In this document: one piece after another, positions 15,511 to 37,436 of the stretch
Layout: each line of letters begins with the position of its first letter
How positions within the stretch are numbered: position 1 is the stretch's first letter
Assembly (NCBI GenBank): GCA_003818505.1
Contig: RPRI01000038.1
Coordinates: 1-37,436 of the forward strand
Reading direction: 5' to 3'
DNA length: 37,436 bases
DNA from: Desulfobacteraceae bacterium
GTDB taxonomy: Bacteria > Desulfobacterota > Desulfobacteria > Desulfobacterales > RPRI01
The notes under the pieces: generated by a model
What the model saw: only the letters and a program-made list of their open reading frames with translations
Told to the model about the DNA's origin: nothing
The model's database searches: none
Position numbers and translations under genes: made by a program

Positions 15511-16851
15511 TCAGGAAATGGGGTTTCTCCTGACTTCTAATGAAATTGCCGGACATGAACGTTCAAATTCTTTAAACAGATCTTCCGTCCTTTTTGAAAC
15601 CTCGTTGAACTTAATTATTATTTCGTTGCGGAAGTCTGCATCGATTTTGCCTGCTTTTTTCTTCAATTCCTCAAAATTTTGCCTGCTTTGATTTAAAAGC
15701 AAAGTCGCTTTTATGATGGTCTCTCTGGAATTAACTTTTACCGTTTCCTGATATTTCTTAATCTGTTCCCTGAATTTGCAGTAAGATGCTTCAAGAGATA
15801 AATATATTCTATCCATCTTGAGCATTTCTCTCGTAATTACATGGAAATGGTGCCCGACAATGCCGAACCGGATAGTTTCGGCAAATATATTGCTGTGCTT
15901 AATTAAATTTCTTGTAAGAAACTTAATATATTGAAAACCATAACGTGTGAAGATCTGCCGGAATAGCGATTCAATAAATATTCTTATTTCCGGAAAACGG
16001 ACTTGTCTCTGGAAAAAAGCCGTATTCCCCAGATTATCAAGGAGTATGTTGCAGCGGGCAAAGTAATTTTTCAGGTTTGAGTCGTAAATATTGTCCAAAA
16101 CCTTCTTGTAACCTTCTTTTAATTTTACAACATCCATTTTAGTGACAAAATTGGTGCTCATCCCGTGTGTGTTGTTACCGATCGACTCACATATTATTCT
16201 GCCTTCTCTTTTTAATCGTGAAAAAAGGGACGTGTTGGGCAGCGCAATAAGAAGACCTACCATCGCTTTGGGAATCCCGGCGTTCTGAACAAAAGAGATC
16301 TGCCGGTCGAATATATCTTCCCCGTCGCTGTCAAATCCAACGATAAAACCCGCCATGACTTCCATTCCGTGACTCTGTATTTTAAGCACAGATTCCTGTA
16401 AATCGCTTTTAAGATTTTGTAATTTTCCGGTTTCTTTCAAAGATTCCAGTGATGGCGTTTCGATCCCGATAAAAACTTCATTAAAGCCCGCATTTTTCAT
16501 TTGCTCCATAAGCTCTTCATCATCCGCAAGGTTTATGCTGGCTTCCGTGAAAAATCTGAAAATGTATCTGTGCATTTTCTGCCAATCAGTAAGGGCCGGG
16601 AGCAGTTCGCCCTTGACCCGTTTTTTATTTCCGATAAAGTTATCATCCACTATAAAGACCGGCCCACGCCATCCAAGATCGTATAGTGAATCGAGTTCAA
16701 GAATTATATTATTTGCCGATTTTAACCTCGGGGTATTCCCGTATGATATCCAGATATCGCAGAATTCGCACCTGAAAGGACAGCCCCGGGAATATTGAAT
16801 TGACATCGAGGAGTAGGCTTTCATGTCAAGGAGATCAAATCTTGGAGTAAC
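15511..16851 (-). CDS. B12-binding radical SAM protein, radical SAM + DUF4070 part (after in-frame stop)
   Basis: This is the downstream, larger part of a gene that starts at 17310 and is cut by TAA at 16852-16854. Reading straight through, the frame resumes as [20 protein letters not shown] and gives the Fe-S cluster motif [10 protein letters not shown] (C-X3-C-X2-C), the SAM-domain segments [10 protein letters not shown] and [10 protein letters not shown], and then a DUF4070 C-terminal region with long helices. The first ATG after the stop is at 16824 and has no ribosome site, so independent translation is doubtful. The family is a large group of B12-dependent radical SAM enzymes in anaerobes; the substrate is unknown. 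The lipid acyltransferase neighbour hints at lipid or isoprenoid modification. Confidence 0.75.
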
Positions 16852-17310
16852 TTAGTTTGACAGGTCCGGACGGCCGCCTTGTGAATATGTCTTTTTTGCA
16901 CATCCGTTTTCATAGTCAGACAGAAATGTTTTCAGAGTATCTTCGACCTCTCCAAGGAGAAAGTGATCGACACCTTCTATCTTATCATAACTTGAGGTCG
17001 GGTAAGGGCCGCCCGCTACAACCGGAACGTGAAGGCGGTTGCAGGTTGAGACAACTTTAATAAATGATTCTTTCTGGATTATCATTGCCGATATAAATAC
17101 AGCATCCGCCCATAGAACATCCTCTTCCATAAGAAGCCCGATATTAATATCGACAAGCCTGATATTATATTCCGGAGGAATAAGAGCAGCTATGGTAATG
17201 AGTCCAAGAGGAGGCATAGAGCTTTTTTTATGCACGAACTTAAGGGCATGCTTGAAGCTCCAGTATGTGTTACCCGGTACTTCTGGATATACAAGTAAAA
17301 TGTTTTTCAT
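16852..17310 (-). CDS. B12-binding radical SAM protein, N-terminal cobalamin-binding part (ends at in-frame TAA)
   Basis: This is the N-terminal 152 residues of the same enzyme. MKNILLVYPEVPGNTYWSFK opens the B12-binding-like domain, followed by PPLGLITIAALIP, RLVDINIG, WADAVFISAMIIQKES, VVAGGPYPTS and VDHFLLGEVEDTL, all standard for this family. The frame stops at TAA 16852 right after GGRPDLSN, where the family continues with a short proline-containing linker into the radical SAM domain; the linker is present downstream in the same frame. The start is ATG 17310 with GAGG six nt upstream; ATG 17322 in frame lacks a site. One base change would restore a single 599-codon gene. Confidence 0.75.
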   Translation of the reverse strand: MKNILLVYPEVPGNTYWSFKHALKFVHKKSSMPPLGLITIAALIPPEYNIRLVDINIGLLMEEDVLWADAVFISAMIIQKESFIKVVSTCNRLHVPVVAGGPYPTSSYDKIEGVDHFLLGEVEDTLKTFLSDYENGCAKKTYSQGGRPDLSN

Positions 17311-17371
17311 TTTATACCTCATTAAGACTCATTATTTGGTGGAAAGAAAATTAACGCAGCGTCTTATATTT

Positions 17372-32349: not shown

Positions 32350-32961
32350 ATGGAAAAAATCAATAAGATTATCGCCGCTGCCACCCTGTGCTTTTCCGTC
32401 CTTCTGGCGCTCTTTTCCCTGCTTCTTCCCGTTTATGCCTTCATACCGAATCTTATTGAGAGGTCGGTCCATTTGGGACTCGCCATACCGATCATCTTTT
32501 TGGCGGGGAAGGGATTAAAGAAAAAACGGACCCTCGCAGTAGACCTTTTTTTGACTGCCATTGGGCTGTTTCTCTGTATTTACATCATGGTCGACTTCGA
32601 AGGGGTTCTCAATCAGTTCGGAATCGTCAAAAATTCCTATCAGGTTCTTATGGGTCTGGCAATGGTGCTGATCGTGCTGGAATGTGCGCGCAGGATGATA
32701 AAGCCCGTGCTTCCCGCAATCACCCTTCTCTTCCTCCTCTATGCGCTTTATGGCCATCATATCCCCGGCTATTTTGGGCATGTGCAGTACGATCTTTCCC
32801 AGGTTGCGGGGATGCTCTATCTGACGACAGGAGGTGTCTGGGGCCAGCTCACGGGAATTTCGGCCGGCATTATTGCCATATTCGTCTTTCTGGGCGCATT
32901 TATCGGCTATACGGGAGGAGGAATCGGGTTCAGAAAAATCTCCGTTCGCCTTGCAGGGTGA
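32350..32961 (+). CDS. TRAP 4TM/12TM fused permease, N-terminal part (ends at in-frame TGA)
   Basis: The first 203 residues of a fused TRAP permease: four DctQ-like helices (about 8-30, 37-52, 62-80, 97-110), then the start of the DctM-like domain (AITLLFLLYALYGHHIPGYFG, TGISAGIIAIFVFLGAFIGYTGGG). The frame ends at TGA 32959-32961 right after ISVRLAG. The family continues there with a basic residue and GGP-x-KV, which is exactly what follows downstream in the same frame. One base change (for example CGA to TGA) explains the break. The ribosome site is weak (AGGA). Confidence 0.8.
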   Translation: MEKINKIIAAATLCFSVLLALFSLLLPVYAFIPNLIERSVHLGLAIPIIFLAGKGLKKKRTLAVDLFLTAIGLFLCIYIMVDFEGVLNQFGIVKNSYQVLMGLAMVLIVLECARRMIKPVLPAITLLFLLYALYGHHIPGYFGHVQYDLSQVAGMLYLTTGGVWGQLTGISAGIIAIFVFLGAFIGYTGGGIGFRKISVRLAG

Positions 32962-34251
32962 CGGAAAGGCGGGCCGGGCAAAGTGGCAACCGTTGCCAGC
33001 GCCATGTTTGGAAGCATTTCCGGAAGCGCCTCCGCCAATGTGGTCACCACAGGCGCCTTCACTATTCCCATGATGAAGAAGCTGGGGTTCCGCCCGCCCT
33101 TTGCCGCGGCTGTGGAGGCTGTAGCCTCAACAGGAGGCCAGATCATGCCCCCTATCATGGGCGCAGGGGCCTTCATCATGGCGGAACTAACCCAGACTCC
33201 CTACCTCAAAATTGCGATAGCCGCTTCCCTGCCGGCTATACTCTACTTTTTCACCGTCTGGATAGGAGTCCATTTCTTTGCCATGAGGGATGGTCTTCAT
33301 GGGCTTGAGGCGAAAGAGATTCCATCCTGGAGCGAAACTATCGGGGCAAGCGGTTTTTTCATCATCCCTTTTGCTGTATTGATATTCTTCCTTATCCGTC
33401 TTTACACTCCCCAGTATGCCGCTTTCTGGGCTACACTGAGCACCCTACCTCTCGCCTTTGTCACGACGGATTGGAAATTTGACAGGACCTTCCTGACAAA
33501 AATCAAAGGAGCGGTTCAGGAAGGCGCTTCTCAGGTCGCCATGATCGCCAGCATATGCGCATGCGCCCAGATCATCATTGCCATCCTATCCTATACCGGG
33601 TTTGGCGTGAAGATCTCCACTCTTATTGTCGATTTGGGCGGGGGTAATCTCTTCCTCACTCTGGTCCTCACAATGGCCGCCTGCATCATTCTCGGAATGG
33701 AAGTACCCACCACGGCCGCTTATATAATGGCTGCCGTAGTGGCTGCCCCTGTTCTGATTAAGCTGGGCATCCATCCCCTTGCAGCTCATTTTTTCATCTT
33801 CTATTACGCTATTCTTTCGGCAATCACCCCTCCTGTCTGCGGCGCTGTCTTTATTGCCTCGGGGATGGCCGGAGCCGATTGGATAGAGACCGCCGGCTAC
33901 AGTCTCCGGTTGAGCTATGCAGCTTTTTTATTACCCTTTGTCTTTATCTATGACAACTCTATGCTGCTTATCACGGGAAATCTCTTTGATACTCTTTTAT
34001 GCGTAATCAGGGTGACCATGGCCATGATCTTCCTGAGCGCCGGATTTATCGGACAGTTCCGGAGGGAGTTAAATATCCCGGGGAAGCTCGTCCTGCTTTC
34101 TGTGGGGGTTCTGTGGATTGTGAATTACTGGCTCTGGGATCTGCTGGCTTTAATTGGAACGATCCTTGTTGTCTGGGACCGGAACCTGATCTACCGAAAC
34201 ACACCGAATCCTCAAAAGCTTGAAAGTGAAAGGATGAGCTCGGATGGTTAA
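32962..34251 (+). CDS. TRAP 4TM/12TM fused permease, DctM-like part (after in-frame TGA)
   Basis: Continuing in the same frame after the TGA: RKGGPGKVATVASAMFGSIS, GSASANVVTTGAFTIPMMK, GGQIMPPIMGAGAFIMAE and the late signature ALSAITPPVCGA-like ILSAITPPVCGAVFIASG. These are diagnostic of the large TRAP subunit, which forms the transport path. With the N-terminal part it would be a roughly 633-residue fused permease. A GTG at 32983 could restart translation but would delete part of a helix and has no good ribosome site. The stop overlaps the DUF362 start by 8 nt. The region is more GC-rich than most of the window. Confidence 0.82.
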   Translation, partial: RKGGPGKVATVASAMFGSISGSASANVVTTGAFTIPMMKKLGFRPPFAAAVEAVASTGGQIMPPIMGAGAFIMAELTQTPYLKIAIAASLPAILYFFTVWIGVHFFAMRDGLHGLEAKEIPSWSETIGASGFFIIPFAVLIFFLIRLYTPQYAAFWATLSTLPLAFVTTDWKFDRTFLTKIKGAVQEGASQVAMIASICACAQIIIAILSYTGFGVKISTLIVDLGGGNLFLTLVLTMAACIILGMEVPTTAAYIMAAVVAAPVLIKLGIHPLAAHFFIFYYAILSAITPPVCGAVFIASGMAGADWIETAGYSLRLSYAAFLLPFVFIYDNSMLLITGNLFDTLLCVIRVTMAMIFLSAGFIGQFRRELNIPGKLVLLSVGVLWIVNYWLWDLLALIGTILVVWDRNLIYRNTPNPQKLESERMSSDG

Positions 34252-35415: not shown

Positions 35416-36231
35416 TTGAATTCTCATGCAGACAGGAAAAAGATTGCCTATTTGGGTCCGCACGGGACTTTTACCCATGAAGCGGCTATAAGGTATTTTG
35501 GACCGGAAGAGGAATTCATTTCCCGAAATACGGTGAAAGATGTCTTATACCTGTATAAGGCCCGAGAGGTAAAAAACTGCGTTCTGGCCATTGAAAGCTC
35601 CATAACAGGGATTGTCCGTGAAAACCTTGATGAGCTGATAAAAATTGACCAGGGGTTTATTGTCGGAGAAATCCTCATCCCTGTCCATCACCATTTAATG
35701 GCAAAACCAGGGTCGGATTTGCATAGAATTAGAGTTGTCGCAGGCCATCCTGTAGCAATCGAAGAGTCAAAAATATGGCTTCGGCAAAACCTCCCGGATG
35801 TTAAGCTGGAAACGGTACCTTCATCATCCATGGCTCCAATAGAGGTCAGCCGGAAAAGATCTTTGGCGGTTGCGGCAATTGCATCAAAGACTGCGGCCGA
35901 CCTATATGGATTGAAAATTCTGGCTTCCGATATCGAAGATATTCACGACAACCTCACTCGTTTCTGGGTTCTCGGAAGAAAGATTCAATCTCCTGCAGGG
36001 CACGATATAACGGCTTTGTTGGTGCAGGAAGACCTTAATGCCGTCCTTTGTGGTTTAATAGCCCTCAATATTTCAATTATATCCATTTATGAACGCCCAA
36101 CCACGGAAAGATCAGGCGGTCACTTTTACCTTTTGGAAGTGGGAGGTCATGCCATGGAAAATCCCATGGATCTTTTTTTAAAGAAATTTGCAAAGATAAG
36201 GCTCCTGGGTTCCTATCCGGGAAAGTATTAA
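35416..36231 (+). CDS. pheA: Prephenate dehydratase with ACT domain
   Basis: A 271-residue enzyme that converts prephenate to phenylpyruvate. The catalytic domain begins KIAYLGPHGTFTHEAAIRYF, has AIESSITGIVRENLDEL (Ser where the usual motif reads E-N-S) and the essential Thr in NLTRFWVLG. The C-terminal ACT region has LNISIISIYERPTTERSGGH, where the common Phe-binding ESRP reads YERP, so feedback control may differ. The start is taken as TTG 35416 with AGAGG 9 nt upstream; the frame is open back to 35350 inside the DUF362 gene without family similarity. It is the last gene of the TRAP-DUF362 run. Confidence 0.9.
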   Translation: MNSHADRKKIAYLGPHGTFTHEAAIRYFGPEEEFISRNTVKDVLYLYKAREVKNCVLAIESSITGIVRENLDELIKIDQGFIVGEILIPVHHHLMAKPGSDLHRIRVVAGHPVAIEESKIWLRQNLPDVKLETVPSSSMAPIEVSRKRSLAVAAIASKTAADLYGLKILASDIEDIHDNLTRFWVLGRKIQSPAGHDITALLVQEDLNAVLCGLIALNISIISIYERPTTERSGGHFYLLEVGGHAMENPMDLFLKKFAKIRLLGSYPGKY

Positions 36232-36361
36232 AATCGGGCGATTGTGGATGTATGTGCATATCCTTGAGATTTGATTACCGGCCTGATACAGTCTCTTAAC
36301 GGTGTGCAAATATCTAACAGACTCCCGGATATTTACCGGTCTGCATTAAGGATGAGAAAAA

Positions 36362-36982
36362 ATGACTTCAATTACAGCGCTTGAAATCTTTTCGGATTAC
36401 GTCTGACCCTGGTGTTATTTCATTACCGGGCGTATTGAACAGTTGAAAAGAGAATATGAACTATCCATCCGGTGGCGGGCCTTTCCTCTTCATCCTGATA
36501 CACCGGAAGACGGCCTTCTGATCGAAAAATTGTTTGCCGATTATCCGGTAGATGTGAAAAAAATGATGGGCAAATTGCGTAAAAAAGCAGAAGATCTGGG
36601 GCTGCCTTTCGGAGAACGGGAAAAAACCTATAACAGCCGTTTGTCGCAGGAGCTGGGACTCTGGGCTGAATCAAAAAATAAAGGGGATGCGTTCCATCAT
36701 GCGGTATTCAGAGCTTACTTTGAAGACGGGAAGAATATAGCCAAATTACCGGTGCTTCTGGATCTGGCGGAATCCGCCAGCCTTCCCCGCGAAGAAGCCG
36801 CCGAAGTTCTTGAAACAAGGTCTTTTAAGGCGGCGGTAGATGCGGACTGGGCTCTATCCCGTGAGAAGGAGATTACAGCAGTTCCGACATTTGTCATGAA
36901 ACAGGACAGGCTGGTCGGCGCGCAACCTTACGATATGCTGAAAAGACTTATGGCCGCAAACAATATTAAAAAAAGAAGTTAA
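36362..36982 (+). CDS. DsbA/FrnE-family thiol oxidoreductase, probable selenoprotein (UGA = Sec15)
   Basis: The frame starts at ATG 36362 with AAGGA 9 nt upstream and reads through an in-frame TGA at 36404-36406 to TAA 36982, 206 residues. The N-terminus is ITALEIFSDYV-UGA-PWCYF: in FrnE-like DsbA proteins this is SDYVCPWC, so UGA replaces exactly the nucleophilic Cys of the C-P-W-C site, giving U15-P-W-C18. The rest is family-typical: RWRAFPLHPDTPEDG, GLPFG, HHAVFRAYFEDGKNI and the cis-Pro loop ITAVPTFVM. A stem-loop of SECIS type follows the UGA (36419-36439). No signal peptide is present, so it acts in the cytoplasm. Without readthrough the protein would begin after its active site and be useless. 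Confidence 0.88.
36419..36439 (+). promoter_or_regulatory. Putative bacterial SECIS stem-loop
   Basis: As RNA: UUCA pairs with UGAA, then a U-U mismatch, then UAC pairs with GUA, closing an apical loop CGGGC. The Gs of the loop are 22-24 nt after the UGA, inside the usual 16-37 nt range and close to the fdhF arrangement, where a G-rich loop on a short stem binds SelB. An alternative, closer hairpin (CCC-U-GGU with ACC-GGG) overlaps it but would place the loop too near the UGA. Confidence 0.7.
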
Positions 36983-37362
36983 GATGAACAGGAAAAACCA
37001 GGATGGAATTGTCTTTGAAGCAGGTCCTGTCATGCAAACCATTTTCACGATATCCTGCTCACTTTAGAATTTCTGTGACGGATAAACTTCGTTTTTAAAA
37101 CACGCTTCTCATATCCTTGCATCATGCGGTCAGCATCAGGCTTGACTTATTCATATTTCTTCTATAAATGTGAATCAATAAATAATTTTCCCGGCACCGT
37201 ATTAATCAATATAAGATAATATTCCATATAACATCTTTTTTTAGTTTAATTTTTAAAATGTCATTGTTGAGCTTCCATTGGATTTTTTACAGGTCAAGGT
37301 ATTTGTTTTAAACAATCTGAAACCGTAAACCAGAAACCAGCATTTAATAAAAGGAGGGCAAA
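36983..37362. other. 380-bp AT-rich gap
   Basis: No supported gene, terminator or repeat was found. A 27-codon frame at 36984 has no ribosome site of note. The last 60 bases carry the promoter region and the AAAGGAGGG ribosome site of the dodecin gene. Confidence 0.4.
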
Positions 37363-37436
37363 ATGGCAGAGAGTGTATACAAGATAGTCGAACTTGTCGG
37401 AACAAGCACAAAATCATGGGAAGATGCGGCAAAAAA
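37363..37436 (+). CDS. Dodecin family protein (5' part, cut by window end)
   Basis: The first 24 codons are visible: MAESVYKIVELVGTSTKSWE then DAAK. This is the diagnostic dodecin N-terminus (VYKxxElvGtSxxSwedAa). Dodecins are roughly 70-residue proteins that form hollow dodecamers storing flavin (or CoA) in the cytoplasm. AGGAGGG lies 5-10 nt before the ATG, a strong ribosome site. The rest lies beyond the window. Confidence 0.88.
   Translation, partial: MAESVYKIVELVGTSTKSWEDAAK

Follow-up and report, generated by a model that had tools for sequence, protein, structure and literature searches.

The gene at positions 36362-36982 of the window (the whole analysed stretch of 37,436 nucleotides from a Desulfobacteraceae bacterium) very probably encodes a selenoprotein of the DsbA family, in its FrnE-like branch, in which a SelB-dependent hairpin would direct selenocysteine (Sec) into residue 15 of a U-P-W-C redox site. 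We base this reading on the alternation of TGA and Cys codons at this place, a covarying hairpin specific to the UGA forms, the freezing of synonymous codons, and the presence of Sec machinery together with four other genes with TGA at Cys positions. A preliminary description of the DNA had proposed Sec insertion at the U-x-x-C site of a FrnE-like enzyme, and the comparative evidence supports that proposal.

The frame starts with ATG at 36362, is closed by a TAA stop at 36982 and contains a single in-frame TGA, at 36404-36406, which corresponds to residue 15. Translation with readthrough gives a product of 206 residues, MTSITALEIFSDYV-U-PWCYF..., so that the coordinates in the preliminary description, which placed the TGA at the first Cys of CPWC (SDYV-U-PWC), were exact; the ribosome site that it noted is present as well. 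The following features are recognized, all on the forward strand.

36348..36352, forward strand: Shine-Dalgarno-like AAGGA, read upstream of the ATG.
36362..36982, forward strand: putative selenoprotein gene for an FrnE/DsbA-like (PF01323) oxidoreductase, 206 residues long if UGA is translated as Sec, assigned from the PF01323 score and PDB matches.
36404..36406, forward strand: in-frame UGA, predicted Sec15, first residue of U-P-W-C, from 148 aligned loci.
36413..36415, forward strand: codon of Cys18, presumed resolving partner of Sec15, from the translation and the protein alignment.
36419..36439, forward strand: bacterial SECIS-like hairpin, from covariation; stem 36419-36426 with 36432-36439, apical loop CGGGC at 36427-36431.
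36881..36889, forward strand: Val-Pro-Thr, with V174 and P175 invariant and T176 nearly so in 37 proteins.

Purine-rich stretches like AAGGA also precede the start codons in 12 rows of a hand-picked set that includes the window gene; in one of these rows (L057) the start is GTG. With U given as C, residues 7-196 match PF01323 (DSBA) at 109.6 bits against a gathering cut-off of 25.6, and a cytoplasmic location of the FrnE-like protein fits a predicted domain that starts at residue 7. Cys18 is the sole Cys of the protein and is invariant in all 37 aligned proteins, 36 of which were picked from the best 80 of 136 relatives. The Val-Pro-Thr is presumably the cis-Pro loop of the thioredoxin fold.

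Under translation table 11, the only ORF listed in this frame has 179 residues and a TTG start at 36443, as had been foreseen for a gene caller bound by the stop; it loses the first 27 residues, catalytic site included. The best-scoring NCBIfam model (31 bits, cut-off 190) and all others stayed below their cut-offs, so the NCBIfam library would not rescue the gene, which is a clear example of how stop-bound gene calling drops an active-site residue. Searching 35800-37436 against Rfam yielded nothing at E values up to 1. No conserved neighbourhood was found among 70 UGA and 65 Cys loci, whose flanks are short (1.5-3 kb, with some loci ending early): a downstream gene forms the largest cluster with UGA loci in it and occurs in 10 loci, and we therefore propose no operon partner. 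A small gene begins at the window edge (37364-37436, forward strand) and may encode a dodecin.

Homologues were aligned at position 15, a check suggested in the preliminary description: of the 148 loci positioned with tblastn, 79 have TGA, 66 Cys (TGT 34, TGC 32), two TGG and one TAA. These loci are the best-scoring part of the existing ones rather than a census, and some genes were fetched twice (e.g. L027 = L053 and L068 = L152). At E 1e-15, 66 of 146 genomes were matched, and 59 of these 66 have an in-frame TGA; the aligned loci cover all of these but the match in G124, and in the 58 covered genomes, with this one counted, the TGA sits at this same codon. A scan of named genome contigs gave 136 relatives; among the best 80 of these, mostly metagenome assemblies, the nearest named ones are assemblies of Thermodesulfobacteriota and Desulfobacteraceae. 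Further UGA forms were seen in assemblies that bear the labels Nitrospirota, SAR324, and beta-, gamma- and alphaproteobacteria.

This distribution bears on the possibility that the gene is dead, a Cys codon having mutated to TGA or been miscalled as such in the assembly. The assembly does contain changes of this kind, two other frames in the window being cut by stops, but the recurrence of TGA at the same codon in many assemblies, the conservation of TGA and hairpin across genera and the RNA-level constraint downstream make a pseudogene or assembly error scarcely conceivable. The relatives of one of those two frames are, by contrast, free of stops. This frame (32350-34251, forward strand), which we take to encode a TRAP-type fused permease, has an in-frame TGA at 32960-32962 at an apparent Arg position; its 18 other matches, 28-39% identical and from seven of 11 genomes, all lack a stop, and the TGA looks like a nonsense change rather than a Sec codon. 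The second frame (15511-17322, reverse strand), presumably radical-SAM-like, is interrupted in frame by a TAA at 16852-16854.

On a tree of the aligned rows, the Sec/Cys label requires nine changes, seven of them forced by starred branches. Shuffled labels required 45.5 changes on average, and none of 500 shuffles was as low as nine. The tree comprises 136 of 141 rows, five with fewer than 150 aligned codons having been dropped, as were the TGG and TAA rows; its bootstrap is not fully settled and several branches are long. The codon-15 column was kept in the alignment, with Sec and Cys both coded C. The tree thus holds at least seven switches between Sec and Cys within one enzyme family. Sec and Cys copies occur together in one genome (L139 and L152 in G126), where they are mutual nearest rows on the tree.

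Two further copies deviate. In the congener G003 (L027 = L053, one gene), TGG (Trp) occupies the Sec codon and the downstream hairpin is kept, which is either a recent loss or a base error. In G004, one copy (L169) has both TGA and hairpin, and its homology ends after 46 residues; it is likely a remnant.

The TGG codon of G003 would fit a reading of UGA as Trp or Cys, through a changed code or near-cognate read-through, without Sec. Against this, UGA alternates with Cys (66 loci) and hardly with Trp (two loci, one gene), the SECIS-like hairpin persists in the UGA forms and is largely missing from the Cys forms, and selA, selB and tRNA-Sec are present in the genome. Reading TGA as sense within the window also overruns many table-11 ends, which suggests that UGA elsewhere is an ordinary stop. 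We consider such a reading highly improbable and retain Sec as the predicted residue.

The hairpin downstream of the UGA was anticipated in the preliminary description as a stem-loop with an apical GGG 22-24 nt after the UGA. The GGG is indeed found there, at 36428-36430, and the stem, of eight positions with one mismatch at 36423/36435, contains pairs that covary over 64 distinct UGA sequences. Counting the U of UGA as 1, the six core pairs 17-35, 18-34, 19-33, 21-31, 22-30 and 23-29 hold in 63, 64, 62, 64, 64 and 64 of these sequences, respectively, or 381 of 384 cells. Fifteen cells are changed on both sides, counted as sequences and not as independent events: A-U to G-C at 19-33 in four sequences, U-A to C-G in eight and to A-U in one at 21-31, and A-U to G-C at 22-30 in two. 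Pair 16-36 occurs in 51 of the 64 sequences and 20-32, mostly U-U, in 21. When the 3' arm was slid by 1-3 positions as a control, 15-50% of cells were paired and 0-1 were changed on both sides. The apical loop is CGGGC in 37 of the 64 UGA sequences; its position 2 is G, and its position 3 is G or U, in all 64.

In the Cys forms (55 distinct sequences), these core pairs are formed in 155 of 330 cells (51, 23, 28, 33, 5 and 15 sequences, in the order above). Pairs 17-35 to 23-29 are also present in all of six UGA forms that are more distantly related (27-40% identical); since these are nearly invariant, they show pairing and not covariation. Synonymous codon identity in the UGA forms is 0.86 in codons 20-26 versus 0.41 over codons 27-206, and in the Cys forms 0.40 versus 0.47. 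For the synonymous and covariation counts, near-duplicates by codons 5-59 were removed (73 to 70 UGA and 66 to 65 Cys sequences). Judged by these comparisons, the stretch downstream of the UGA is under RNA-level constraint.

Folding of single sequences gave a different picture. The stretch 36404-36450, proposed earlier for folding, does not form the apical-GGG hairpin when taken alone; it folds into a competing hairpin in which the GGG is paired (-10.2 kcal/mol, z -1.17, matched by 21 of 200 shuffles). For a 73-nt stretch the folding z was +0.58, and the GGG hairpin alone (36416-36442) reached at best -3.3 kcal/mol (z -1.22). The competing hairpin reaches 92.7% pairing across the UGA sequences compared above but has one cell changed on both sides versus 15, and we rejected this minimum-energy structure as the SECIS element, in which the GGG would be paired. 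The GGG hairpin is shown by covariation and not by energy, on comparative evidence, and the alignment yields a clean set of SECIS sequences for a structure missed by single-sequence folding.

A published bSECIS model, as given in extracts of PMC13188914, has a loop of 3-9 nt, a stem of 4-16 bp, a G in the first two loop positions, a spacing of 16-37 nt and a free energy of at most -7.5 kcal/mol; the same extracts state that some putative bSECIS elements fail the model. In shape the hairpin agrees with these extracts: its stem has eight positions, its 5-nt loop has G in second place and the spacing is 20 nt. Its -3.3 kcal/mol is weaker than the energy limit given there.

Genome searches recovered selA (614.9 bits), selB (388.4 bits) and tRNA-Sec (76.4 bits), all over their cut-offs, which were passed in one, two and five of 14 control genomes, respectively. 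The tRNA-Sec cut-off alone is loose, given these five control genomes; ARAGORN also called the same gene tRNA-Sec, with anticodon TCA. The selA gene is 74-88% identical to selA of the eight congeners searched and is thus native. Co-occurrence of selA was set aside as uninformative, since a selA match is found in 140 of 146 relatives; the one genome without it among the 59 that hold a TGA match is G115, which is 69% complete. The genome also encodes eight FlpD paralogues, four with in-frame TGA at Cys positions: in two it stands in C-x-x-U, and in the other two at a conserved Cys further along.

The preliminary description had called for a search for selA, selB, selC and selD, and had taken absence of the machinery as refuting Sec insertion; three of the four genes are present, and the fourth, selD, is absent from the assembly: the best match scored 52.7 bits against a cut-off of 125, and a SelD query from a congener gave at best 34.6 bits. 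The gene scored over cut-off in 27 of 30 genomes, among them each of the nine congeners searched, where it carries TGA. In four genomes (G001, G002, G003 and G005), a shared pair of genes flanks selD; we take these to be pyrK-like and atpZ-like. In this genome, these flanks adjoin on contig C108 (28768-30651, L198), with ~470 bp between the genes and no selD. Pieces of a dispersed repeat lie at this closed-up junction, so that deletion and assembly collapse are both possible. The repeat is short (~105 bp; 723-1035, mostly 848-955, of the congener locus L172) and occurs on many contigs of this genome, where 45 of 49 matches fall in the repeat stretch, a lower bound from scoring 40 of 199 first-look candidates.

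The closed-up junction would be expected if the strain had lost selD and no longer made Sec, the gene then being silent here though a selenoprotein in its kin. The genome nevertheless retains the selA and selB frames, tRNA-Sec and five or more TGA genes, and a short selD contig could have dropped from the bin or been lost through assembly collapse at the repeat; we hold this silencing to be very unlikely. It is likewise very unlikely that the lineage truly lost selD and kept selA, selB, tRNA-Sec and several SECIS-bearing TGA genes, a situation that would require another source of selenophosphate or a substitute for SelD.

In the preferred reading of the gene as a functional selenoprotein, SelB carrying Sec-tRNA would bind the hairpin just 3' of the UGA, and the ribosome would insert Sec at residue 15 to form the U-P-W-C site. 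By analogy with the family, Sec15 would attack substrate disulfides and Cys18 would resolve the mixed selenosulfide. As the protein has no C-terminal CXXXXC pair, its recycling would probably need an outside reductant.

The closest solved relatives by sequence are the FrnE chains 5cnw and 5cp1 in the PDB (E 4.5e-17 with the single sequence, 2.7e-34 with a 37-sequence profile), whose CPWC aligns on U-PWC and which we take to be Deinococcus radiodurans FrnE (DR_0659). The window protein is shorter (206 versus 260 residues in the PDB chain), with Sec first and one Cys. Apart from this Sec, its site agrees with the CP(W/F)C of the FrnE subfamily. A weaker sequence match (E 1.4e-4) is to 2-hydroxychromene-2-carboxylate isomerase (PDB 2imd), a glutathione-dependent enzyme not known to have a CxxC redox pair. 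According to excerpts of PMC8945050, D. radiodurans FrnE has Cys at both active-site places and a C-terminal CXXXXC, which is found in many, but not all, FrnE members; it is described there as a thiol oxidoreductase with a predicted cytoplasmic location, and its mutant shows sensitivity to cadmium and to diamide. The C-terminal CXXXXC of the FrnE subfamily is absent from the window protein, of which C18 is the single Cys.

We assume that COG2761, in which selenoproteins have been reported, corresponds to the FrnE group. Our literature searches for FrnE with selenoprotein returned no title on this group, and those for selenocysteine with FrnE-like, and for selenoproteins of metagenome-assembled genomes with DsbA and Desulfobacter, returned nothing. 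The novelty implied by the preliminary description was nonetheless too high, as DsbA-like UXXC selenoproteins of COG2761 were published in 2005, with nine sequences from the Sargasso Sea in the available extract (PMC1088965). Extracts of a 2006 paper list four DsbA-like selenoproteins and name Anaeromyxobacter dehalogenans, Desulfovibrio desulfuricans and Desulfotomaculum reducens as having them (PMC1794560), and those of the GOS study of 2008 list DsbA 1-3 (PMC2398784). Two reviews, of 2022 and 2026, place the DsbA-like UxxC family under PF01323 in the parts available (PMC9312934, PMC13188914), the latter under the name 'DsbA-like protein form 1'. The window protein shares with the DsbA-like COG2761 selenoprotein ('DsbA 1' in GOS) PF01323, U-x-x-C and a SECIS element just after the UGA, a likeness drawn from the published descriptions in these extracts and not from sequence; the 2005 and 2008 sets, as described there, consist of marine metagenome sequences. 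The gene reported here adds a member to a family of selenoproteins known since 2005, and its signal is real and conserved.
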